A stretch of 30,797 nt of DNA from a virus. The position numbers were made by a program, and so were the translations under genes. Shown here one piece after another: positions 20,329-29,213 of the stretch; position 1 is the first letter of the stretch, and each line of letters begins with the position of its first letter. The stretch covers positions 1 to 30,797 of the IMG/VR virus record IMGVR_UViG_3300030331_003431; one strand, written 5' to 3'. The notes under the pieces were generated by a model, which searched no databases, was not told the DNA's origin, and saw only the letters and a list, made by a program, of their open reading frames with translations.

Positions 20329-21783
20329 TTAAATTAACCAATCTCTTGTTTTTTCACCTAAAACTTCTGAACTTATATTTATTTTTGATTTAAGTGCATT
20401 CAATATCTTTTCATCTATGGTTCCAATACTTACTAAATCAATGTATGTAACAGGACTTTCTTGACCTATACGATGCGGTCTATCTTCTGATTGCAACCTA
20501 ATTTCTAAATCATAAGCATTAGAAAAATAAATTACCGTAGTGGCGGCAGTTAACGTTAAACCAAATCCCCCTGTTTTTGGTTGTCCTACAAAAAATCGTA
20601 AAGACGAATTTATATCTTGAAATTGTTCAACTATTTTTTGTCTTTCATTTTGTGGAGTGCCACCATAATAAATTGCCGTCGAATCGTTTCCAAAACGACG
20701 GCGCAAGGCTTCAGCAACTTGTAAAACATCATGCGTCCATGTTGCCCAAATTATTGCTTTTCCTTGTAATTCATCTACTGTTTCTAACAAACTATCCAGT
20801 CTATTATTTTTTATGGGTTGTATTGTGTTTTCGTCTGGCTGTAAATGACCGCAAACAATTTGTTGTAAACGCATAATTTGAGTTAAAACACTTTGGGTAG
20901 TTGATAATTCTCCGTTATCAAATTGAGCTAAAGCAAGACTTTTCATTTGCTTATATAAATTTTTTTGTTCTGTAGTCATTTGAACTTCGCGCAACATATA
21001 AATTTTTTTGGGTAAATCTAAACAATCATCTTTTAAAACACGTTCAGAAAAACAATCTATTTTTGTATTTAATTCATCTAATCGCTGATAACCCGTAATT
21101 TCTCTAAAACTGCGTGGGCCTAACGTTCTTTGACGAACCACGGCATAACGATTTTGAAATGTGAAAAAATTTTTAAAACCGAGTAATTTAGAATTAAGCA
21201 CTTCACATTGACTATATAAATCTAAGGGACTTTTTGTAATCGGACTACCGGTAAGAATGCGTTTAAATTTTGCAATTTTTGATAGTTTAATAACATTTTT
21301 TGTACGCAACGCTTTATAATTTTTTATTGTTGTTGATTCATCTACTATTAAAAAGTTGTCTGGATTTTCTTTAAAATATCTTAATGAGGTCATTACACCC
21401 TTGGTTGTTGACATAGCTTCGATGTTCATAATTAAAATATGCAAAAATCCCGGTTCACGGTTCTTTCTAAAAACTAAATCTCGCATAGTTTCTTGAAACT
21501 TTTTTGTCATGTTAGGTTGCCAACGCACCATTTTAATTTTAATTTTTTCCGACAAATGTTGCGGAATTTCCTTAGAATACCAGTTGTCAAAAACACCTTT
21601 TGGCGCTAAAACCAAAACGGTATCTATTTTATTTTTTTGAAATAAAGTGCCAAAAGTATCTATAGCTACTTTTGTTTTTCCTGTACCCATTTCCATAAAA
21701 AGAGCAAATTCTTTTTTATCCCAACTTTTATCAAAAGCAGTTTGTTGATGTTTATAGGCTTTTGTTTTGCTTTTATATTCCAT
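20329..21783 (-). CDS. SNF2-family DNA-dependent ATPase / helicase
   Basis: 484 aa, both RecA-like lobes. Lobe 1: MGTGKTK (Walker A, residues 32-38), VLAPKGVFDNW (Ia), LIVDES (motif II, DES at 148-150), RILTGSPITKSPLDLYSQ (III). Lobe 2: AIIWATWTHDVLQVAEAL (IV), GGFGLTLTAATTVIYF (V), LQSEDRPHRIGQ (VI, residues 430-441), the SNF2 hallmark. In this superfamily the ATPase translocates on duplex DNA; phage members assist replication, recombination or clearing of bound protein. The length is minimal, without chromatin-binding extras. GGAGG lies six bases ahead of its ATG on the minus strand. It is the only replication-type gene read leftwards here, divergent from the 21880 operon. Confidence 0.85.
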   Translation of the reverse strand: MEYKSKTKAYKHQQTAFDKSWDKKEFALFMEMGTGKTKVAIDTFGTLFQKNKIDTVLVLAPKGVFDNWYSKEIPQHLSEKIKIKMVRWQPNMTKKFQETMRDLVFRKNREPGFLHILIMNIEAMSTTKGVMTSLRYFKENPDNFLIVDESTTIKNYKALRTKNVIKLSKIAKFKRILTGSPITKSPLDLYSQCEVLNSKLLGFKNFFTFQNRYAVVRQRTLGPRSFREITGYQRLDELNTKIDCFSERVLKDDCLDLPKKIYMLREVQMTTEQKNLYKQMKSLALAQFDNGELSTTQSVLTQIMRLQQIVCGHLQPDENTIQPIKNNRLDSLLETVDELQGKAIIWATWTHDVLQVAEALRRRFGNDSTAIYYGGTPQNERQKIVEQFQDINSSLRFFVGQPKTGGFGLTLTAATTVIYFSNAYDLEIRLQSEDRPHRIGQESPVTYIDLVSIGTIDEKILNALKSKINISSEVLGEKTRDWLI

Positions 21784-21879: not shown

Positions 21880-22470
21880 ATGTCTAAAGATTTTATGAAA
21901 ATGTTAGAAGAAGACTCCAACGATTCATCTAAGTTAAAAAACTTAGGTAATGAGTTACACACTGTATCTGAAATGGTCAGTGAGTTAGAAAACATTGATA
22001 GTCAAATAGAATTATTTGAACAGAATCTAAAAGAAGCAAAAAACAACCGTTACAAACTTGTAACAGAATCCTTACCGGCCTTACTTGCAGAATTAAATTT
22101 ATCCGAACTCAAGATGGAAGATGGGTCAATGATTTCTGTAAAACAAGTCGTAGCAGGGTCTATTAAAGTAGCAGACAGGCCACAAGCTTTTCAATGGTTA
22201 CGCGATAATGGTCATGGTGATTTAGTCAAACATGTCATTTCCGTTTCTTTTGGTGCAGGGGAGGATGACATAGCACAGAACACAAAAGCTTTGCTATCAG
22301 ATCATTTAAATGCAAATTCAAAAGGCTTGGCCGTAGATGACAAAGAAACGGTGCATAACCAAACACTTAACGCTTTCTTAAGACAACTTAATGAAAACGG
22401 AGAGGAAATTCCTGCGTTTTTTAATCCTTTTATTTCACAAGAAGCAAAACTCAAACGAGGTAAAAAATAA
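21880..22470 (+). CDS. Conserved phage replication-operon protein, unknown function
   Basis: 196 aa. N-terminal coiled coil (ELENIDSQIELFEQNLKEAK), then LPALLAELNLSELKMEDGSM with a small beta domain (ISVKQVVAGSIKV), then FQWLRDNGHGDLVKHVISVS, FGAGEDD and VHNQTLNAFLRQL. I recognise this order from short-tailed phages, where the gene sits in the early/replication block and is annotated hypothetical. No nuclease or nucleotide-binding motif is seen. It is the first gene after the promoter and is coupled by TAATG to the ssDNA-binding candidate, so a role in DNA handling or as its partner is plausible. It was not identified further. Confidence 0.7.
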   Translation: MSKDFMKMLEEDSNDSSKLKNLGNELHTVSEMVSELENIDSQIELFEQNLKEAKNNRYKLVTESLPALLAELNLSELKMEDGSMISVKQVVAGSIKVADRPQAFQWLRDNGHGDLVKHVISVSFGAGEDDIAQNTKALLSDHLNANSKGLAVDDKETVHNQTLNAFLRQLNENGEEIPAFFNPFISQEAKLKRGKK

Positions 22471-23258
22471 TGAATGGTAAACAAGTTACAAAAAAAAGTA
22501 ATTCACAAATGTCTAAAATATCAATGTTCGAAGAAGATGCCGGAGCTGGTGTAGGAAATTTAGGTCAAGAAGATTTAGCCTTGCCTTTCCTTAAATTATT
22601 GCAGAAAAATAACGCAACAGATTTTACAAAATCGGATGGTAACGTTGCTTCTCCCGGAGATATTCTTAACACAGTTTCTAGTGAAATTTACTCTGGAAAA
22701 GATGGGTTAAGAGTAATCCCGTGCGCTTATCAGCGAAGGTGGATTGAATGGTCACCAATGAACGATGGTCAAAAAGGCCCTGTTAATATATTTTTACCGC
22801 ATGAAAAACTGCCAAAATATGAACGGTCTCCAGAAGATAACAAAGAATACATTGTAGATGGTGGGGGTAATTATCTCGAAGATACACACAATCATTTCAT
22901 ATTGGTGGTAGACGATGACAATATTGCAAGCAGTGCTTTAATCGCTATGCGTTCTACTGGATTGAAGAAATCAAAAAAATGGAACAGTCAGATAGCTTCT
23001 TTGGTACTTCAAGGTCAAAACGGGCCGTTTGTACCACCGCGTTATTCTCACATTTATAATTTAAAAACTGTGCTGGAACAGGGTAAAAATAATTATACTT
23101 GGTGGAACTGGGAAATAACTCGTGAGGGTCCTATTCAAAGTGATGAACTTTATGCTCAAGCTAAAATGTTTAGCAAGTCTTGTGATGCGGGAGATGTGGT
23201 GGTCAAACACGAAAAGGACGACATTTCTGAAAATTCTAGTAGCGATGTACCCTTTTAG
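22470..23258 (+). CDS. Probable single-stranded DNA-binding protein with SSB-like acidic tip
   Basis: 262 aa. Aromatic-rich beta protein: LALPFLKLLQ, SPGDILNTVSSEIYSGKDGL, VIPCAYQRRWIEWSP, SHIYNLKTVLEQGKNNYTWW. The last 20 residues are acidic and Ser-rich and end SSSDVPF. Bacterial SSB ends in an acidic tip closing DIPF, which recruits replication enzymes; T7 gp2.5 has an acidic aromatic tail. The terminal DVPF and the place beside primase and polymerase support a phage ssDNA-binding role. I cannot confirm an OB fold by eye. GAGGT stands nine bases ahead of the ATG, coupled to the upstream gene. An alternative is a recombination accessory protein. Confidence 0.6.
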   Translation: MNGKQVTKKSNSQMSKISMFEEDAGAGVGNLGQEDLALPFLKLLQKNNATDFTKSDGNVASPGDILNTVSSEIYSGKDGLRVIPCAYQRRWIEWSPMNDGQKGPVNIFLPHEKLPKYERSPEDNKEYIVDGGGNYLEDTHNHFILVVDDDNIASSALIAMRSTGLKKSKKWNSQIASLVLQGQNGPFVPPRYSHIYNLKTVLEQGKNNYTWWNWEITREGPIQSDELYAQAKMFSKSCDAGDVVVKHEKDDISENSSSDVPF

Positions 23259-23275
23259 TTTGAAAGTACAATTAG

Positions 23276-24811
23276 ATGAACGCAGAAAAATTTGCGGCAA
23301 TTTTCGATGGCCTGAAAAGTGCTTATGGAGTCTATCGTGTAGATCGTAAAAAAGCGAATGGTAAAAGCGTAGGTAAAGCTATGCTTATTCGTGAGGAACG
23401 AACCACGCGGCTTTGGGAAAAGCATTTAATTGGGGGTGGGGATGCGTTAGCAATCATTCCAATTAACGAAAACAATATGGTCAAGTGGGGTTGCTTAGAC
23501 GTAGATGAGTACCCCCTTGATCATAAATTGCTCGTTGAAAAAATTCGTCGTTTAAAAATACCTATGATTGTGTGTCGCTCTAAATCGGGTGGTGCTCATT
23601 GTTATGTTTTTGTGTCCGAATGGATGCCTGCCGGAGAAATGCAAGAAATTTTGCGTCACATGTCTAGTGCTATGGGAACAGGTGATGCTGAAATTTTTCC
23701 TAAACAAACGCAACTTTTTTTAGACCGTGGTGACGTAGGAAATTTTTTAAATGTACCTTACGATGACCATGAAAACGGGTTGCGTTATGCTATAAAAGAT
23801 GATGGGCAATCCGCAACTTTAGATGAATTTTTTGGGCTTTATGACAAGTATGTTCAAACTCCGGAACAACTTCATTCATGGGTGGCTGTTGAAGAAGATA
23901 CTATTGCAATTAAAGATGGTCCCCCTTGTCTTCAACACTTATGTAAACAAAAAATAAGTGAGGGAGGTAGAAACAACGGTCTTTTTAACCTTGGCGTTTA
24001 TTTACGCAAAGCTCATCCGGATAGTTGGGAAACTGAAATACAAAATTATAATATCAATTATCTACAGCCACCGTTACCTTTAAATGAAGTAATGGCCGTG
24101 GCTAAACAATTACAAAAATCCGATTACGCATATAAATGCAAAGACAAACCAATAGTTAATTACTGTAACAATGATTTATGTAGAACTAGAAAATTTGGCA
24201 TAGATGCCGCTGTGAGTGGCGCTACAGTGGCTAATTTAAGAAAATATGATAGTGACCCACCCGTGTGGTTTGTGGATGTAAATGGAGCACCTGTAGAGCT
24301 GGATACTGAAGGTTTAATGAACCAAACAAACTTTCAGCGGGCCTGTATAGATCAATTAAATCACATGCCTCGGTCTATGTCTAAGCAAGCGTGGGAGTCA
24401 CGAATCAATACGCTTCTTTCTGATATGCAAAAAACAGAAGGGAGTGTTGTAGAAGTATCCGAAGATGCTAGCACTAGCGGCGCTTTTTATGAGTTATTAG
24501 AAGAGTGGTGTACGGATATGCAAAAAGCTAAAGATCGAGAAGAAATTTTATTAAAAAGACCGTGGACAGATGAAGATGAAGGAATGATTTATTTTAGAAT
24601 TAGAGATCTTGAATCGCATTTAAAAAGAAATCAGTTTAAAGAATATAAGCCCCATAAAATAGCTCAAAGATTGCGCGACATAAGTGGTGAAGCTACCTCT
24701 ATTTCAATAAAAAATAAAGCTGTGCGTGTCTGGGCAATACCTTCTTTTGAAAATATAGAAGTAGATTTAGAAACACCTGATTTTGGAGAAAATAATGAGG
24801 CTCCCTTTTAA
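23276..24811 (+). CDS. TOTE/AEP-type primase (primase-polymerase)
   Basis: 511 aa. The N-terminal archaeo-eukaryotic primase core has motif I WGCLDVDEYP (metal ligands D75 and D77), motif II CRSKSGGAHCYVFVS (S104-H108), and a third acidic residue in AEIFPKQTQLF (E139), the order of the TOTE-type AEP domain. Such enzymes make primers from NTPs or dNTPs. A second domain (about 210-310) carries PPCLQHLC, RNNGLFNLGVYLRKAHPD, and YKC plus NYCNNDLC, with Cys at 218, 223, 288, 297 and 302, suggesting a metal or Fe-S site. The rest (310-511) is helical and ends GENNEAPF, an acidic Pro-Phe tip like the neighbouring SSB candidate. No helicase domain is fused. The ribosome site is weak. Confidence 0.75.
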   Translation: MNAEKFAAIFDGLKSAYGVYRVDRKKANGKSVGKAMLIREERTTRLWEKHLIGGGDALAIIPINENNMVKWGCLDVDEYPLDHKLLVEKIRRLKIPMIVCRSKSGGAHCYVFVSEWMPAGEMQEILRHMSSAMGTGDAEIFPKQTQLFLDRGDVGNFLNVPYDDHENGLRYAIKDDGQSATLDEFFGLYDKYVQTPEQLHSWVAVEEDTIAIKDGPPCLQHLCKQKISEGGRNNGLFNLGVYLRKAHPDSWETEIQNYNINYLQPPLPLNEVMAVAKQLQKSDYAYKCKDKPIVNYCNNDLCRTRKFGIDAAVSGATVANLRKYDSDPPVWFVDVNGAPVELDTEGLMNQTNFQRACIDQLNHMPRSMSKQAWESRINTLLSDMQKTEGSVVEVSEDASTSGAFYELLEEWCTDMQKAKDREEILLKRPWTDEDEGMIYFRIRDLESHLKRNQFKEYKPHKIAQRLRDISGEATSISIKNKAVRVWAIPSFENIEVDLETPDFGENNEAPF

Positions 24812-24915
24812 TGGCAAAAATTATAATAGAGTTAGATACAACGGAAGATGAAGAAATAGTTAAGTTATTGCAAGATTTAATTACGTTATTAGAGCATGAA
24901 AAAGATAGTAAATAA
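24811..24915 (+). CDS. 34-aa acidic mini-protein
   Basis: ATG 24811 overlaps the primase stop by one base (TAATG), with GAGG ten bases ahead. The product (MAKIIIELDTTEDEEIVKLL, then a short helix to EHEKDSK) reads as one beta strand followed by an amphipathic helix. The coupled start and coding-like composition support it, but it is short and its function is unknown. It overlaps the next mini-gene by 20 bases. Confidence 0.5.
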   Translation: MAKIIIELDTTEDEEIVKLLQDLITLLEHEKDSK

Positions 24916-25015
24916 ACTAAAAACATATTTTATTTTGTGGATTATTTTTATAGTTTTTTTAACATTGTTAAACGGCTATTTGATAGGGCTTTTGATTTGG
25001 CATTTAATGAACTAA
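24896..25015 (+). CDS. 39-aa single-pass membrane mini-protein
   Basis: ATG 24896 to TAA 25013-25015. It has a basic N-terminus (MKKIVNKLKT) followed by YFILWIIFIVFLTLLNGYLI and a further hydrophobic run, GLLIWHLMN. A positively charged head and about 27 hydrophobic residues make a convincing membrane segment; a random AT-rich frame would seldom give this layout, although Phe/Leu/Ile codons are favoured by AT bias. The ribosome site is weak (TTAGAG). The role is unknown; small phage membrane peptides include holins and superinfection or host-takeover factors. Confidence 0.5.
   Translation: MKKIVNKLKTYFILWIIFIVFLTLLNGYLIGLLIWHLMN
24980..25008 (+). promoter_or_regulatory. Promoter candidate ahead of a structured leader
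   Basis: TTGATA (24980-24985), 17-bp spacer, TTTAAT (25003-25008): five of six consensus bases in each box at ideal spacing. It lies inside the end of the 39-aa gene. The expected start near 25015 falls just ahead of the inverted repeat at 25020-25059, so the two features support each other. AT richness raises the chance of coincidence. Confidence 0.45.
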
Positions 25016-25019
25016 AAGA

Positions 25020-25059
25020 GATACTTTTTTAAAAAGCAACCCTTTAGGGTAAAAGTATC
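25020..25059 (+). promoter_or_regulatory. Structured 5' leader: 9-bp stem stacked on a hairpin
   Basis: GATACTTTT (25020-25028) pairs perfectly with AAAAGTATC (25051-25059). Inside, ACCC-TTTA-GGGT (25039-25050) forms a hairpin directly abutting the 3' arm, leaving a 10-base bulge on the 5' side. The ribosome site AAAGGA starts right after the 3' arm. No U-run follows, so it is not a terminator. It may control translation of the 85-aa gene or protect the mRNA end, or at DNA level be an operator. It fills the largest gene-poor spot of the replication module. Confidence 0.5.
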
Positions 25060-25071
25060 AAAGGAAAAAAC

Positions 25072-25329
25072 ATGAAAACAGCAGACGGATTCGACGAAGC
25101 GATTGTTGGAATTGTCCGGCAATTTAACCAACCTACCAAAGTGGTATATGACTACGGTAAGTGCTTGAAAATACTTGAAAAACGCGACGGCATGACATCG
25201 GAAGAAGCGATAGAATATATGGAATTTAACGTGGTTGGCGCTTATGTGGGCGAAGATACCCCAGCTTGGCTGATATCCGGCGACAAAGAGTCGATAAAGT
25301 ATTATGTGGAAGAAGAGGCTGGAGGATAA
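25072..25329 (+). CDS. Conserved 85-aa protein of unknown function
   Basis: 85 aa: FDEAIVGIVRQFNQPTKVVY, then DYGKCLKILEKRDGMTSEEA, EYMEFNVVGAYVGEDTPAWL. I recognise this pattern (bipartite helix, RDGM-EEA, EFNVxGAxVGE-TP) as a widespread small protein of phages and bacterial genomes with no assigned function. A good AAAGGA site follows a structured leader and promoter candidate, suggesting separate control from the primase operon. Base composition is more GC-balanced than the flanking structural genes. It is followed after 14 bases by the methyltransferase gene. Confidence 0.75.
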   Translation: MKTADGFDEAIVGIVRQFNQPTKVVYDYGKCLKILEKRDGMTSEEAIEYMEFNVVGAYVGEDTPAWLISGDKESIKYYVEEEAGG

Positions 25330-25343
25330 AAAGGAGTGGAGAA

Positions 25344-25811
25344 ATGGCAAAAAAATCGGTTCACTTTAGTAGTGAAAAAGATGATTGGGGTACTCCAACA
25401 GTTTTTTTTGATCAAATGGAGCGTCGTTTTCAAGGATTTGATAGGGATGTATGTGCCTCTGACCAAAATGCAAAATGTAAAAATTATTGGACAAAAGAAG
25501 ATGATGCTTTATCGAAAACATGGACTGGATACTGTTGGATGAACCCACCTTACGGTAGACAAATTGGAAAGTGGGTAAAGAAAGCCTACGAGTCGGCGGA
25601 CAGCGGAGAGGCCACAGTAGTGTGTTTATTACCGTCACGAACGGATACTAAATGGTGGCACGATTATGTCATGCGGGCGGACACCGTGTGGTTTATCAAA
25701 GGACGTTTGAAGTTTGAGGGTGCACGAAACTCGGCACCTTTTCCTAGTGCAGTAGCCGTATTTGGAAATTATCCGTGTTATCAGTGGGGTAAATTTAGTT
25801 ACAATGTTTAG
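25344..25811 (+). CDS. dam: Phage-type DNA N6-adenine methyltransferase
   Basis: 155 aa. HFSSEKDDWGTPTVFFDQME, then FDRDVCASDQNAKCKNYWTK, CWMNPPYGRQIGKWVKKAYE and FIKGRLKFEGARNSAPFPSA follow the short phage Dam-like family (pfam Dam). MNPPYG (NPPY at 67-70) is the catalytic motif of adenine-N6 methyltransferases; GRLKF-G is another family mark. The usual role is self-marking of phage DNA against restriction or timing of packaging; the target site cannot be read from sequence. ATG 25344 has AAGGAG seven bases ahead. It overlaps the helicase gene by eight bases. No partner restriction enzyme is seen. Confidence 0.85.
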   Translation: MAKKSVHFSSEKDDWGTPTVFFDQMERRFQGFDRDVCASDQNAKCKNYWTKEDDALSKTWTGYCWMNPPYGRQIGKWVKKAYESADSGEATVVCLLPSRTDTKWWHDYVMRADTVWFIKGRLKFEGARNSAPFPSAVAVFGNYPCYQWGKFSYNV

Positions 25812-27318
25812 GATTTTCGGACCTCCGGGTTGCGGTAAAACAACAACTTTATTAAACATGGTAGATAAATATCTTGCCGATGGAATACAGTCAAATGAAA
25901 TAGGTTTTTTTGCGTTTAGTCGTAAAGCAGCAAAAGAAGCTAAAGAAAGAGCGGCTATCCGCTTTAACTTAGACCCCGACAAAGATTTAATGTATTTTAG
26001 GACTTTACATTCTTTTGCATATCGAATGATTGGGTTAAAAGATAGTCAGTTAATGAAAAACGAACATTTTAGAGATTTATCTAAGCATATAGGTATCAAT
26101 TTAACTACAATAAAACCATCAGGTCAGGTAGAGGATAGTGAATTATCGAGTTCAATTAGTGATCATCCTATTTTATCTTTAATAAATTTATCTCGTTTGA
26201 AAAAAATTTCTTTACGTCAAGAGTATGATAAATCAGAATTGATGCACACTTGGACGGAAGTAAGCTATGCCGATAGATGTTACAAAAAATATAAAGAAGT
26301 TAATGGTTTAGTTGATTATACGGACATGTTGAGTATATTTTCAGAATCTGCCGAAAAGTTTTGCCCTAAATTTAAAGTAGCATTCATGGACGAAGCACAG
26401 GATTTATGTGCATTACAATGGGATATAGCTCACGCTATTGAATTAAAAAGCGATAAAATGTATGTAGCCGGTGACGATGATCAAGCTATTTATAGGTGGT
26501 CTGGGGCAGATCCTGATTATTTAATTCATTTAGAAGGGGGTAGCGAAACATTGTCCCAGTCGTATCGTATTCCAGCACAAGTGCATAATGTAGCGGAAAA
26601 AATAGTAAACCGTATTTCCCACCGATTTTCAAAAAAATATTTGCCTCGAAAAGAAAAGGGATCTGTACAACGTGTGTTTCGTGCAGGGGAATTAGACATG
26701 TCCGAAGGAACTTGGTTGGTTTTAGCACAAGCACGGTACATGCTATACCCCATTGAAGATGAATTAAAAAACTCTGGTTATCTTTTTGAAAAACTTAATG
26801 GTTATCGATCAATACCTGAAAAGTTATCTGAAGCCGTTAATGGTTGGGAACAGTTACGAAAAGGTGAAAGTGTTTCACTTGCCACGGCTCAAACTATATA
26901 TTCGTACATGTCTGGAAATGGTGTCAAAATAGCTCGTGGGTTTAAGAAAATTAAAGGTTTAGAAGAAGAAATGTATACTTTAAATCGTTTGCAAAAAGAA
27001 CATGGCTTGCTTATAGGCGAGGATATTATTTGGCACGAGGCGATGGATAAGTTACCGCAAGCTGACCGCGCGTATGTTGTAGCTTTATTACGACGCGGTG
27101 AAAAGTTTAATGCCAAGCCCCGTATCAAAGTCAGCACGATCCATCAAGCGAAGGGGGGCGAAGCGGATAACGTAGTTTTGCACACAGATCTTTCGGCCGC
27201 CGCCGCACGAATACAAAATGATGATACACATCGTGTATTTTATGTTGCCGTAACACGAACCAGAAAAAATCTGTATCTCGTTGAACCGGAAGACATATCA
27301 AGGAGTTATACTATATGA
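25804..27318 (+). CDS. UvrD/Rep-like superfamily 1 DNA helicase
   Basis: 504 aa. Motifs in order: IFGPPGCGKTTT (Walker A, residues 6-13), FRTLHSFAYR (Ia-like), FMDEAQDL (motif II, DEAQD 196-200), VAGDDDQAIYRWSGAD (III), LSQSYRIP (IV), VSTIHQAKGGEADNVVL (V), HRVFYVAVTRTRKNLYLV (VI). This is the UvrD/PcrA/Rep set, a 3'-5' ssDNA translocase. It is about 200 residues shorter than bacterial UvrD, so accessory subdomains 1B/2B are reduced. The start at 25804 puts Walker A directly at the N-terminus. Lying between Dam and PolA and with no DnaB-type enzyme seen, it could be the fork helicase, which is inference. It overlaps PolA by four bases. Confidence 0.85.
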   Translation: MFRIFGPPGCGKTTTLLNMVDKYLADGIQSNEIGFFAFSRKAAKEAKERAAIRFNLDPDKDLMYFRTLHSFAYRMIGLKDSQLMKNEHFRDLSKHIGINLTTIKPSGQVEDSELSSSISDHPILSLINLSRLKKISLRQEYDKSELMHTWTEVSYADRCYKKYKEVNGLVDYTDMLSIFSESAEKFCPKFKVAFMDEAQDLCALQWDIAHAIELKSDKMYVAGDDDQAIYRWSGADPDYLIHLEGGSETLSQSYRIPAQVHNVAEKIVNRISHRFSKKYLPRKEKGSVQRVFRAGELDMSEGTWLVLAQARYMLYPIEDELKNSGYLFEKLNGYRSIPEKLSEAVNGWEQLRKGESVSLATAQTIYSYMSGNGVKIARGFKKIKGLEEEMYTLNRLQKEHGLLIGEDIIWHEAMDKLPQADRAYVVALLRRGEKFNAKPRIKVSTIHQAKGGEADNVVLHTDLSAAAARIQNDDTHRVFYVAVTRTRKNLYLVEPEDISRSYTI

Positions 27319-29213
27319 CTGGAAAATTACAACTAGCTATGTTTACACCAAGCTCTGAATGGATACCTCCACAGGATTTACCCGATTTATCCGGAGAAAA
27401 AGAAATTGCTATCGATCTTGAAACATGCGACCCGCATCTTAAAACCAAAGGCCCCGGTTGGGCAACTAATAGTGGTGAAGTAGTGGGCTTTGCTGTGCAT
27501 GTCCATAATTGGACAGGGTATGTTCCAATTAGACACTTAGGTGGTGGAAATCTTGATGAGCGAATCGTAAAAAAATGGCTAAAAAAAATATGTAGCGGAT
27601 CTGGCGATAAGATATTCCATAACGCGCAATATGACGTAGGATGGCTTCGTCAATATGGCATCCAAGTGAATGGCCGTATTGTTGATACAATGCTCACCGC
27701 CAGCTTAATTGACGAAAATCGTTTTTCTTATTCTTTAAATGCTCTTTGCTATGATTATTTAGGGCAAACTAAAAGTGAAAAAACTTTAATAGAAGCAGCA
27801 CAGGATTTTGGGGTAGACCCTAAAGCAGAGCTTTGGAAATTGCCTTCTCAATTTGTAGGGCCTTATGCTGAAGCGGACGCAAGGTTAGCTTACGAATTAT
27901 GGCAACATTTTAAAGTAGTTTTAAACAGAGAAGATTTATGGTCAATATGGGAACTTGAAACTAAGCTGTTGCCTTGTTTATTAGAAATGACGTGGCGCGG
28001 CATTCGTGTCGATGTGGATCGTGCGGAAAAAACTAAACAAACGTTACTGAAAAAAGAAAAAGAAGCGTTGAAAAAAATTAAAAAGATTGTCGGTAAGGAC
28101 ATCGAGATTTGGGCCGCACAGTCTTTAGCTGAAGCGTTTGATAAAGTGGGTATTAAATATCCAAAAACTGAAAAAGGTAGTCCTAGTTTTAAGAAGACTT
28201 TCCTGACTGAACATCCACATGAGTTACCTAAACTTATTGTTCGTGCTCGTGCGTTAAATAAAACTCATTCTACTTTTATTACAAATGTTATGAAATTTAT
28301 GAATAAAGGTCGTATTCATTCCCACATCAATCAGATCCGCTCTGACGATGGTGGCACCGTATCAGGAAGAATTTCAATGCAAAACCCTAACCTTCAACAA
28401 GTACCTGCAAGAGATCCCGAACTAGGGCCTATGATTCGTAGTCTATTTTTACCTGAAGAAGATGAACTATGGGCTAGTATTGATTATTCGCAACAGGAAC
28501 CACGAGTCTTGGTACATTACGCTAAAGCTTATGGTGATTCTAAAAATATTCAATTAGCCGGTGTAGAAGAGTTTGTTGAGGGATATCGTAACAACCCTGA
28601 TATGGATTTTCACACAATGGTGGCAGAAATGGCGGACATTCCACGAAAACAGGCCAAGGTAATTAACCTTGCCATGATGTACGGCATGGGTGTGAACAAA
28701 CTAGCTGACCAGTTAGACATCGAAAAAGAAGAAGCCCGTGCCTTAACCAAACAATATCACGAGCGCGTTCCGTTTGTGCGCCAGTTAATGCAAGGCGTGA
28801 GCCGCCGGCTGGACGACCCTCGGAGCAGTGGTTCAATTCGCAGTTTGAAGGGGCGCAAATGCCGCTTCGATCTCTGGGAACCTGATTCATTTGATATGCA
28901 CAAGGCCATGAGTAAAGAAGAAGCTTTGGCAGAATACGGGCCTACTACGCGCTTGAAACGTGCTTACACTTATAAAGCGCTTAATCGACTCATACAATCT
29001 AGTAGCGCGGATATGACAAAAATGGCAATGGTAGAAAGCTTTGAGGCTGGCTTTGTACCGCTGTTACAGGTTCACGATGAATTAGCCTTTAGCGTGAAAG
29101 ATGAAGCACAAGCCTTGGAACACGCTTCACGGATGGAAAAAGCTATCGAATTATCTGTTCCCAATAAATGCGACGTAGAAATAGGTAAATCGTGGGGCGA
29201 AAGTCTATCGTAA
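27315..29213 (+). CDS. polA: Family A DNA polymerase with 3'-5' exonuclease
   Basis: 632 aa. Exonuclease: IAIDLET (D34, E36), HNAQYD (D107), YAEADARL (Y184, D188), all metal ligands present. Polymerase: SGRISMQNPNLQQVPARD, motif A SIDYSQQEPRVL (D390), motif B RKQAKVINLAMMYGMG, motif C QVHDEL (D588). There is no 5' nuclease domain, usual for phage PolA. The residue matching E. coli Phe762 is Leu452; in marine phage PolA this position has been linked to polymerisation speed, fidelity and lifestyle. AAGGAG precedes the ATG, which overlaps the helicase stop. A GC-rich patch covers about 28761-28870. It is the phage replicase. Confidence 0.92.
   Translation: MTGKLQLAMFTPSSEWIPPQDLPDLSGEKEIAIDLETCDPHLKTKGPGWATNSGEVVGFAVHVHNWTGYVPIRHLGGGNLDERIVKKWLKKICSGSGDKIFHNAQYDVGWLRQYGIQVNGRIVDTMLTASLIDENRFSYSLNALCYDYLGQTKSEKTLIEAAQDFGVDPKAELWKLPSQFVGPYAEADARLAYELWQHFKVVLNREDLWSIWELETKLLPCLLEMTWRGIRVDVDRAEKTKQTLLKKEKEALKKIKKIVGKDIEIWAAQSLAEAFDKVGIKYPKTEKGSPSFKKTFLTEHPHELPKLIVRARALNKTHSTFITNVMKFMNKGRIHSHINQIRSDDGGTVSGRISMQNPNLQQVPARDPELGPMIRSLFLPEEDELWASIDYSQQEPRVLVHYAKAYGDSKNIQLAGVEEFVEGYRNNPDMDFHTMVAEMADIPRKQAKVINLAMMYGMGVNKLADQLDIEKEEARALTKQYHERVPFVRQLMQGVSRRLDDPRSSGSIRSLKGRKCRFDLWEPDSFDMHKAMSKEEALAEYGPTTRLKRAYTYKALNRLIQSSSADMTKMAMVESFEAGFVPLLQVHDELAFSVKDEAQALEHASRMEKAIELSVPNKCDVEIGKSWGESLS

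Follow-up and report, generated by a model that had tools for sequence, protein, structure and literature searches.

The window is the whole 30,797-nt stretch of DNA analyzed here, from IMG/VR record IMGVR_UViG_3300030331_003431, an incomplete 36.8-kb scaffold of an aquatic phage. Genes for TerL, the portal and the major capsid protein are absent from the 36.8-kb record. Its ends map onto the phage DSL-LC04, so the missing piece is taken to be ~14 kb long and to hold packaging and head genes. The replication module consists of a plus-strand block and a SNF2 gene divergent in orientation from the rest; the Pfam matches of its genes are all above curated cut-offs.

20329–21783, minus strand: SNF2-family SF2 ATPase, 484 aa (SNF2-rel_dom 2e-24, Helicase_C 1e-12; phrog_62)
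21880–22470, plus strand: DUF7307 / Pam3 gp33-like protein, 196 aa (Pfam 2e-28)
22470–23258, plus strand: Pam3_Gp34-like protein, probable SSB, 262 aa (Pfam 8e-53)
23276–24811, plus strand: AEP-TOTE primase with PriCT_1 (Pfam 8e-11 and 7e-6)
25072–25329, plus strand: 85-aa ORF, phrog_13182 (PHROGs 5e-23)
about 25344–25811, plus strand: Dam-type DNA N6-adenine methyltransferase (Pfam Dam 2e-33)
25804–27318, plus strand: UvrD/Rep-family SF1 helicase, 504 aa (UvrD-helicase 2e-30; match ORF 25762–27318)
27315–29213, plus strand: family A DNA polymerase with 3'-5' exonuclease (DNA_pol_A 1e-63, exonuclease 3e-12)

Genes of the module

Five replication genes (SNF2, gp34, AEP-TOTE/PriCT primase, UvrD and PolA) are real, with intact catalytic motifs, and PHROGs annotations agree with Pfam (DNA helicase, primase, DNA helicase, DNA polymerase). 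The original prediction had placed an SSB candidate, a TOTE-type primase, a UvrD-like helicase, PolA and a SNF2 ATPase in one block at 21880–29213; the genes are as it described, but the SNF2 gene lies outside that interval. The gp33-like gene opens the plus-strand block, a position kept in relatives and in IMG/VR loci. A gap of 96 bp separates it from the SNF2 gene; the idea that this gap holds an origin or promoter was dropped, as it has no repeats and a promoter count equal to that of shuffled sequences. About one in four of the 80 closest IMG/VR loci has the phrog_13182 ORF, and in some relatives it sits between the primase and UvrD or PolA. None of the complete relatives examined has Dam annotated between primase and UvrD; it is probably an accessory cargo gene.

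The primase motifs are intact (D75xD77, SKSGGAH, EIFPKQ), with D75, D77, S104, H108 and E139 invariant across the alignment, and the protein scores 42 bits against PF22548 (AEP-TOTE; cut-off 27). The closest solved structure to its catalytic domain is the CRISPR-associated Prim-Pol CAPP of Marinitoga (profile 7nqd, 3e-15; Foldseek, 4e-10), in support of the AEP primase of the original prediction. Unlike CAPP, the window's primase is not CRISPR-linked and has PriCT-1, a four-Cys site and an acidic tip. The Cys columns C218, C288, C297 and C302 (PPC, then C-x8-C-x4-C) are invariant. A PriL-like iron-sulphur domain was considered here, but the AF2 model is poor in this part and Foldseek with the primase model returned no PriL match, so that the reading is reduced to a likely metal site. 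The partner genes of TOTE conflict systems are Tet/JBP, helicase and HNH genes; the neighbors of this primase are phage replication genes, a context that excludes membership in such a system, only the AEP domain being common to both.

UvrD probably starts at the ATG at 25804, where its relatives begin. Its motifs (GPPGCGKT, DEAQD, GDDDQAIYRW, VTR) are intact, and with SF1 motifs and a PF00580 match above cut-off it belongs to the UvrD/Rep SF1A group, as a relative of Rep and PcrA. Its 2B region is about 75–90 residues shorter than theirs, at about 90 aa vs. about 170 in Rep. This subdomain varies in size within the UvrD/Rep family and is not strictly defining.

The SNF2 protein, also with intact motifs (GTGKT, DES, RIGQ), has as its closest solved relative the SNF2/Rad54-family helicase 1z63 (2e-29), and probably translocates on dsDNA without separating its strands. 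PolA retains its exonuclease motifs (DLET, NAQYD) and its polymerase motifs (DYSQQE, RKQAKVINLAMMYG, VHDE). When RKQAKVINLAMMYG is aligned with Klenow RRSAKAINFGLIYG, a Leu stands opposite F762 (E. coli numbering), as it does in 165 of 165 relatives whose PolA motif was located.

Ring helicases and the primase-UvrD linkage

The original prediction saw no DnaB or gp4 helicase, and this is right for the window's own record. Because that record is incomplete, the absence was tested in complete relatives, with the same outcome: PF03796 had no match in the complete genomes of DSL-LC04, 023Pt_psg01, HTVC027P and HTVC023P, nor in nine more AEP-primase phage records, with T7, HTVC011P and HMO-2011 positive. 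The check proposed at the outset, for a hexameric helicase encoded at another locus, thus finds none in the four closest complete genomes, and 39 further long IMG/VR records were negative as well. Searches for SF3 DUF5906/VapE and for Toprim gave nothing above cut-off in the module phages and were positive in controls (T7, HTVC011P, HMO-2011, M6 and phiVC8 across searches); the Toprim result in complete relatives agrees with the predicted lack of a DnaG-type primase. PF08706 (D5_N) matched nowhere, SF3-bearing controls included, and is therefore uninformative. Weak DUF5906/DnaB matches in G001, Pan1 and R26L proved not to be helicases: one protein is kinase-like, one a clamp loader resembling DnaX, and one a BCS1-like AAA protein. 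SNF2 apart, only UvrD gave a convincing Walker A match in the four complete relatives, by a strict pattern that did not pick up TerL, and no phage AAA+ loader was found in them.

UvrD accompanies this primase closely. Among IMG/VR loci with the primase, 301 of 310 have UvrD nearby (78/80, 78/80, 79/80, 58/58 and 7/11 in five clades), and when phage records are ranked as carriers of this UvrD, the top 24 are exactly those whose primase match is substantial. HTVC023P-type pelagiphages, 023Pt_psg01 and DSL-LC04 have the same gene order, SNF2 (minus strand), gp33, gp34, AEP primase, UvrD and PolA, with DSL-LC04 identities to the window of 50% (primase), 41% (UvrD) and 56% (PolA). Unlike the HTVC023P-type relatives and DSL-LC04, the window has Dam between primase and UvrD, and most of its head genes are not on the record. 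Yuavirus M6, phiVC8 and Wifcevirus ECML-117 share Pam3-gp34, SNF2, a family A polymerase and AEP-type priming with the window, but the AEP is a different one (RepB_primase / Prim-Pol), fused to or beside a DUF5906/VapE (SF3-type) helicase, and no UvrD is above cut-off. Since the primase and UvrD go together in 24 of 24 records, while phages sharing gp34, SNF2 and PolA pair another AEP with an SF3-type helicase, the slot of the ring helicase appears to be filled by UvrD. Primase-UvrD and SF3/DnaB show an apparent mutual exclusion in the phages examined. Among more distant cases, MW202803 (a distant AEP-TOTE) encodes a DnaB-like helicase, and Meiothermus phage MMP7 has another AEP (Prim-Pol) near UvrD. 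Pan1 and R26L have an additional UvrD as well as further AAA proteins, so that replisomes of the larger Nanhaivirus type may be built differently.

The replisome had been called unusual, which does not hold: it occurs widely, in IMG/VR as well as in isolates, and its outline, a Leu762 PolA with SNF2-like and UvrD-like helicases and no ring helicase, was published by Nasko et al. in 2018 (PMC6302109). That paper gives this module, Leu762 Group II, 16.4% of reads on PolA contigs in one virome, as the second most abundant PolA module. The window has the Leu762 and the SNF2-like and UvrD-like neighbors of that group; the lack of a ring helicase is seen in complete relatives, its own genome being only partly available. 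In the text consulted (PMC6302109) the Group II primase is not identified, whereas here it is AEP-TOTE and tied to UvrD; nor are a link to SF3 replacement or C-terminal tips mentioned there, both of which are proposed here. New in the present comparison are the primase-UvrD co-occurrence and the SF3-type helicase found in its place in phages sharing SNF2, gp34 and PolA.

Shared C-terminal tips of gp34 and primase

The gp34 protein is a probable single-stranded DNA-binding protein. Its AF2 model has a pLDDT of 87, with a disordered tail (252–262). A fold search against the PDB gave nothing at E<=0.001; its weak, non-significant OB-fold matches include several to RPA, SSB or the MCM N-domain. 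One viral SSB was matched at 6.5e-4. The disordered C-terminus is acidic and SSB-like (SSSDVPF), and that of the primase is also acidic (GENNEAPF). A P[FW] ending is found in 67 of 72 gp34 relatives and 76 of 79 primase relatives, and in none of the SNF2, gp33, UvrD or PolA proteins of the relatives; UvrD C-termini and some SNF2 C-termini are likewise hydrophobic-ended. In HTVC027P-like pelagiphages both gp34 and primase end in -IV (66 of 66 pairs). Tips differ in the 023Pt clade (gp34 -TPY, primase mostly -ENF/-EHF/-EDF), and the R5C primase is without an acidic, hydrophobic-ended tip. Within the MW202510 clade the covariation of gp34 and primase tips is suggestive (permutation p = 0.005, a value that still includes shared ancestry).

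The acidic, hydrophobic-ended tip common to the primase and the SSB-like protein is the other new observation, and as a shared sequence feature it suggests one common docking partner for the two. The T7 replisome (gp4, gp5, gp2.5) is comparably small, with a family A polymerase and acidic C-terminal tails, that of gp2.5 serving as a docking device. T7 differs in joining its Toprim primase and ring helicase in one protein, where the window encodes the primase, an AEP, apart from the SF1 motor. The acidic tails of T7 gp4 dock on gp5 (PMC8472574, PMC12593628), and tip docking is modeled on this here. The exceptions in the 023Pt clade and R5C and the hydrophobic ends of UvrD and some SNF2 proteins count against a common phage partner, and an SSB-like tip could also reach host factors.

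A candidate fork motor and its alternatives

There is perhaps an even chance that the window carries the replication module of a podovirus-like phage, related to DSL-LC04 and the HTVC023P-type pelagiphages, in which UvrD is the fork motor, the AEP primes, PolA copies and gp34 coats single-stranded DNA. From gene content and motifs we infer the following roles. The AEP primase would lay primers, PolA (Leu762, proofreading) would copy both strands, and gp34 would coat the exposed single strands. The fork would be opened by the UvrD-type SF1 helicase, a candidate by its sequence, in the slot held by the SF3 or DnaB ring of sister phages. It would travel 3'→5' on the leading-strand template, like PcrA with RepD on rolling-circle plasmids, with PolA assisting from behind, and the shortened 2B possibly frees it from auto-inhibition. 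The gp34 and primase tips would dock on the same protein, PolA or a different member of the module being the likeliest, and SNF2, as a dsDNA translocase, would clear proteins or move junctions, and would not be the main fork helicase.

There is precedent in the PcrA-RepD plasmids for a UvrD-family motor as main fork helicase, such motors unwinding plasmid lengths with RepD, and the Rep monomer is activated by 2B deletion (PMC13238157); unlike that system, no Rep-type relaxase was recognized in the window's module. On their own, enzymes of the UvrD family have low processivity and mostly play accessory parts, and a 3'→5' polarity would put UvrD on the opposite strand from DnaB; both count against UvrD as the motor. 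The fuller proposal, of a self-contained ringless replisome with an SF1A motor of reduced 2B ahead of a leading-strand PolA and a shared dock for the primase and SSB tips, replacing an AEP + SF3-ring design, is offered tentatively.

Some Leu762 viral PolAs displace strands alone (PMC9069017), and a fork helicase may therefore be unnecessary. PolA would then separate the strands itself and the AEP start them, leaving UvrD and SNF2 to clear obstacles, rescue forks or serve recombination-dependent replication. The same idea was proposed by Keown (2022) from expressed viral PolAs, where two of five primer-extending Leu762 enzymes displaced strands and were associated with SNF2 genes (PMC9069017); this PolA has Leu762, and phi29 replicates without a helicase (PMC8472574). 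The phi29 enzyme is family B, however, and most of the primer-extending Leu762 enzymes assayed did not displace strands. Displacement by PolA would leave unexplained both the tie between UvrD and primase in 24 of 24 phage records and the SF3-type helicases of related phages without this primase, and we consider it somewhat unlikely.

Many tailed phages use host DnaB, and the C-terminus of bacterial SSB binds PriA and other host proteins. Host DnaB could be the fork helicase here, recruited by the gp34 and primase tips via PriA/PriC or some other host protein that binds SSB tips, with UvrD accessory like Rep; the tips DDVPF, DDIPF and EEIPF match the bacterial SSB C-terminus, and no phage-encoded ring helicase was found. 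This is doubtful, given that the four complete relatives have no phage AAA+ loader, that the phages encode their own polymerase and primase, and that where SF3 is absent UvrD is present rather than an empty slot. Tips in the HTVC027P clade (-IV) are unlike the usual bacterial SSB tip, so a phage partner fits better than a host one. Moreover, nearly all dsDNA viruses with a primase encode a replicative helicase, with about 2% exceptions (PMC5862659). A divergent ring helicase, in the missing part of the 36.8-kb record (without TerL, portal and major capsid) or in an unrecognized protein, is highly improbable: proteins that have diverged far can escape pattern and HMM searches, as TerL escaped the strict Walker A pattern, but the missing ~14 kb are packaging and head genes by the DSL-LC04 mapping, and searches for DnaB, SF3 and VapE whose controls worked were negative in four complete relatives and in many long records.

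How DNA is unwound in AEP-primase mobile elements without a recognized replicative helicase was flagged as open in 2018 (PMC5862659), and no report of reconstitution of the SNF2, UvrD and Leu762 PolA combination was found in the literature. For phages with this module the question is now testable: the primase-UvrD linkage, the apparent SF3/DnaB exclusion and the common tips define a small system with four or five protein components, several of which are available in isolates, from Acinetobacter, Klebsiella, Dinoroseobacter and Pelagibacter phages.

The record and its replication genes

The window's record is incomplete at 36,839 bases, of which the window is the leading 30,797. The SSB candidate, primase, UvrD, PolA and SNF2 genes named in the original prediction are real and intact, and all lie within the block it had drawn at 21880-29213 except SNF2, which falls outside. 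The genes are, in 5' to 3' order:

20329-21783, minus strand: divergent SNF2 ATPase
21880-22470: DUF7307/Pam3-gp33 protein
following gene: Pam3-gp34 protein, the SSB candidate
23276-24811: AEP-TOTE primase with PriCT-1
following ORF: 85 aa
25344-25811: Dam methyltransferase, between primase and UvrD
following gene: UvrD-family helicase
last of the block: family A polymerase (PolA)

The gp33-like protein, here and in relatives, is a constant first module gene with a basic C-terminus. No Dam-type adenine methyltransferase is annotated at the matching position in the complete relatives read. Just past 30797 two contigs are joined by ten Ns (from 13799 of L001, a stretch of the same record reaching beyond the window), and the ~100-200 bp stretches flanking this run are near-duplicates of each other. 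The right-hand 6 kb of the record may have been attached by scaffolding; the genes there for the terminase small subunit and a DUF932 protein match DSL-LC04 in order. A small ORF 3' of the terminase small subunit (L001 16533-16967) has a weak match to Hjc, a Holliday junction resolvase.

Ring helicases and the primase-UvrD pair

No DnaB/gp4 ring helicase was found in the window's own record, a weak negative because the record is a fragment. With its ends placed by protein matches on the complete DSL-LC04 genome, ~14 kb is missing; the DSL-LC04 counterpart carries TerL, portal, GroES and capsid genes. The full-genome search set beforehand as the test for a hexameric helicase was therefore run on complete relatives, and was negative: DSL-LC04, 023Pt_psg01, HTVC027P and HTVC023P have the same module and no DnaB_C match, so the predicted lack of DnaB/gp4 holds on the record and in these four. 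In all four, UvrD was the sole convincing match besides SNF2 to a strict Walker A pattern, one that missed TerL, so that divergent P-loops can escape it. In a search that detected the positive controls T7, HTVC011P and HMO-2011, a further nine phage records with an AEP primase, one of which carries the label of a partial genome, gave no ring helicase over the cut-off; nor did 20 records from IMG/VR, and another 39 from IMG/VR were negative as well. Three weak matches in module phages were rejected, having been traced to non-helicase ATPases or kinases. Toprim_2 matched the three controls only, in agreement with the predicted lack of a DnaG-type primase.

A 2018 study (PMC6302109) reported that ring helicases are absent beside Leu762 PolA (E. 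coli numbering), which goes with SNF2 and UvrD; the same absence was discussed in 2022 (PMC9069017), and primase, helicase and PolA are listed among the conserved genes of HTVC023P-type genomes (PMC9599517). Given this published outline, the module is of a known kind. Some of its regularities look new: no paper joining AEP-TOTE, UvrD and the C-terminal tips described below was found in the part of the literature searched.

Originally called unusual, the module is not rare in IMG/VR. Scans starting from several clades found UvrD in 301 of 310 primase loci (78/80, 78/80, 79/80, 7/11, 1/1 and 58/58); clades differ in gene order, and many contigs stop near the primase, nine loci being without UvrD. 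In the best 80 of at least 600 rows from the first primase scan, the order SNF2 (minus), gp33, gp34, primase, (85-aa ORF), UvrD, PolA is kept as far as contigs reach, with few exceptions. Among 50,697 phage records, the 24 with a substantial primase match are also the 24 best-matching carriers of the module's UvrD, while relatives of PolA (2841 records), SNF2 (1836) and gp34 (486) are far commoner. The primase and this UvrD thus move as one pair. The AEP-UvrD-PolA module also occurs in Klebsiella and Pseudomonas relatives beside a PurZ-like (2-aminooxy) adenylosuccinate synthetase (stretches L014, 17499 onward, and L016, 17483 onward), and these are likely 2-aminoadenine (Z) genomes.

Protein features, shared tips and fork opening

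The primase domain is nearest the CRISPR-associated Prim-Pol CAPP (profile 3e-15, fold 4e-10), with DxD, SxGxH and E residues invariant among aligned relatives. Four cysteines, C218 and C288-x8-C297-x4-C302, are likewise unchanged across the relatives compared (11 diverse, 40 closer) and likely form a metal or Fe-S site. The region is poorly defined in the predicted structure. The window's PolA has Leu762, and so does every one of the 165 relatives whose motif could be located. UvrD can be aligned with Rep and PcrA, and its 2B region is about half the size of Rep's; the 2B of Rep has a regulatory role, and a Rep monomer becomes active when 2B is deleted (PMC13238157). The gp34 model is confident (pLDDT 87) and beta-rich, with no significant PDB match in a structure search; several of the weak matches, below significance, are OB-fold ssDNA-binding proteins.

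In the window's clade, 67/72 gp34 and 76/79 primases have a proline-aromatic end, mostly preceded by acidic residues (DVPF, DIPF, EAPF, EIPF), and SNF2, gp33, UvrD and PolA of that clade never do. In the HTVC027P clade both proteins end in -IV (gp34 68/68, primase 78/79), and the last two residues are identical in 66/66 gp34-primase pairs. The 023Pt clade has -PY in gp34 and mostly -ENF, -EHF or -EDF in primase; in the MW202510 clade the last residue of both is mostly aromatic. Such tips resemble the C-terminus of bacterial SSB. They also resemble the acidic tails of T7 gp4, which dock on gp5 (PMC8472574, PMC12593628). The joint shift to -IV, in counts uncorrected for shared ancestry, suggests a common, phage-encoded partner for the two tips.

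In the most likely mechanism, given about even odds, UvrD would open the fork in front of PolA, with the AEP laying primers, gp34 serving as coat, and the tips anchoring both gp34 and the primase on one shared hub. Strand displacement by PolA itself, already proposed for SNF2-associated viral PolAs (PMC9069017), is a tentative alternative. Host DnaB as fork helicase would have to be recruited, via the tips or otherwise, and seems rather unlikely. A hidden ring helicase is very improbable.

Probable unwinding partners in other phages

Yuavirus M6, phiVC8 and Wifcevirus ECML-117 resemble the module phages in carrying gp34, SNF2 and a DNA polymerase, but their AEP is another one (RepB_primase or Prim-Pol), fused to or beside an SF3-type helicase. 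SF3-type DUF5906 and VapE are present in these three, which have no UvrD over the cut-off; neither domain scored over the cut-off in any module phage searched. MW202803, the sole record that combines a distant AEP-TOTE primase with the lack of an annotated UvrD nearby, has a DnaB-like helicase, a DnaB-like/KaiC-like ATPase with which the primase is paired (stretch L110, 6021-9870). The simplest reading, by inspection of a handful of comparison genomes, would be one unwinding partner per AEP replisome here: SF3, DnaB-like or UvrD.

In Thermus phage Riverbug an annotated primase adjoins a UvrD, and in Meiothermus phage MMP7 a Prim-Pol AEP is a few genes away from one (stretches L111, 6376-8692, and L112, 7090-10596). 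Both are without the module, and the pairing is possibly of independent origin. The larger phages Pan1 and R26L each encode a second UvrD; Pan1 also has a DnaX-like clamp loader, and R26L a BCS1-like AAA protein (stretches L107, 785-1744; L109, 481-2001; L108, 513-1895); their replisomes may be more elaborate.
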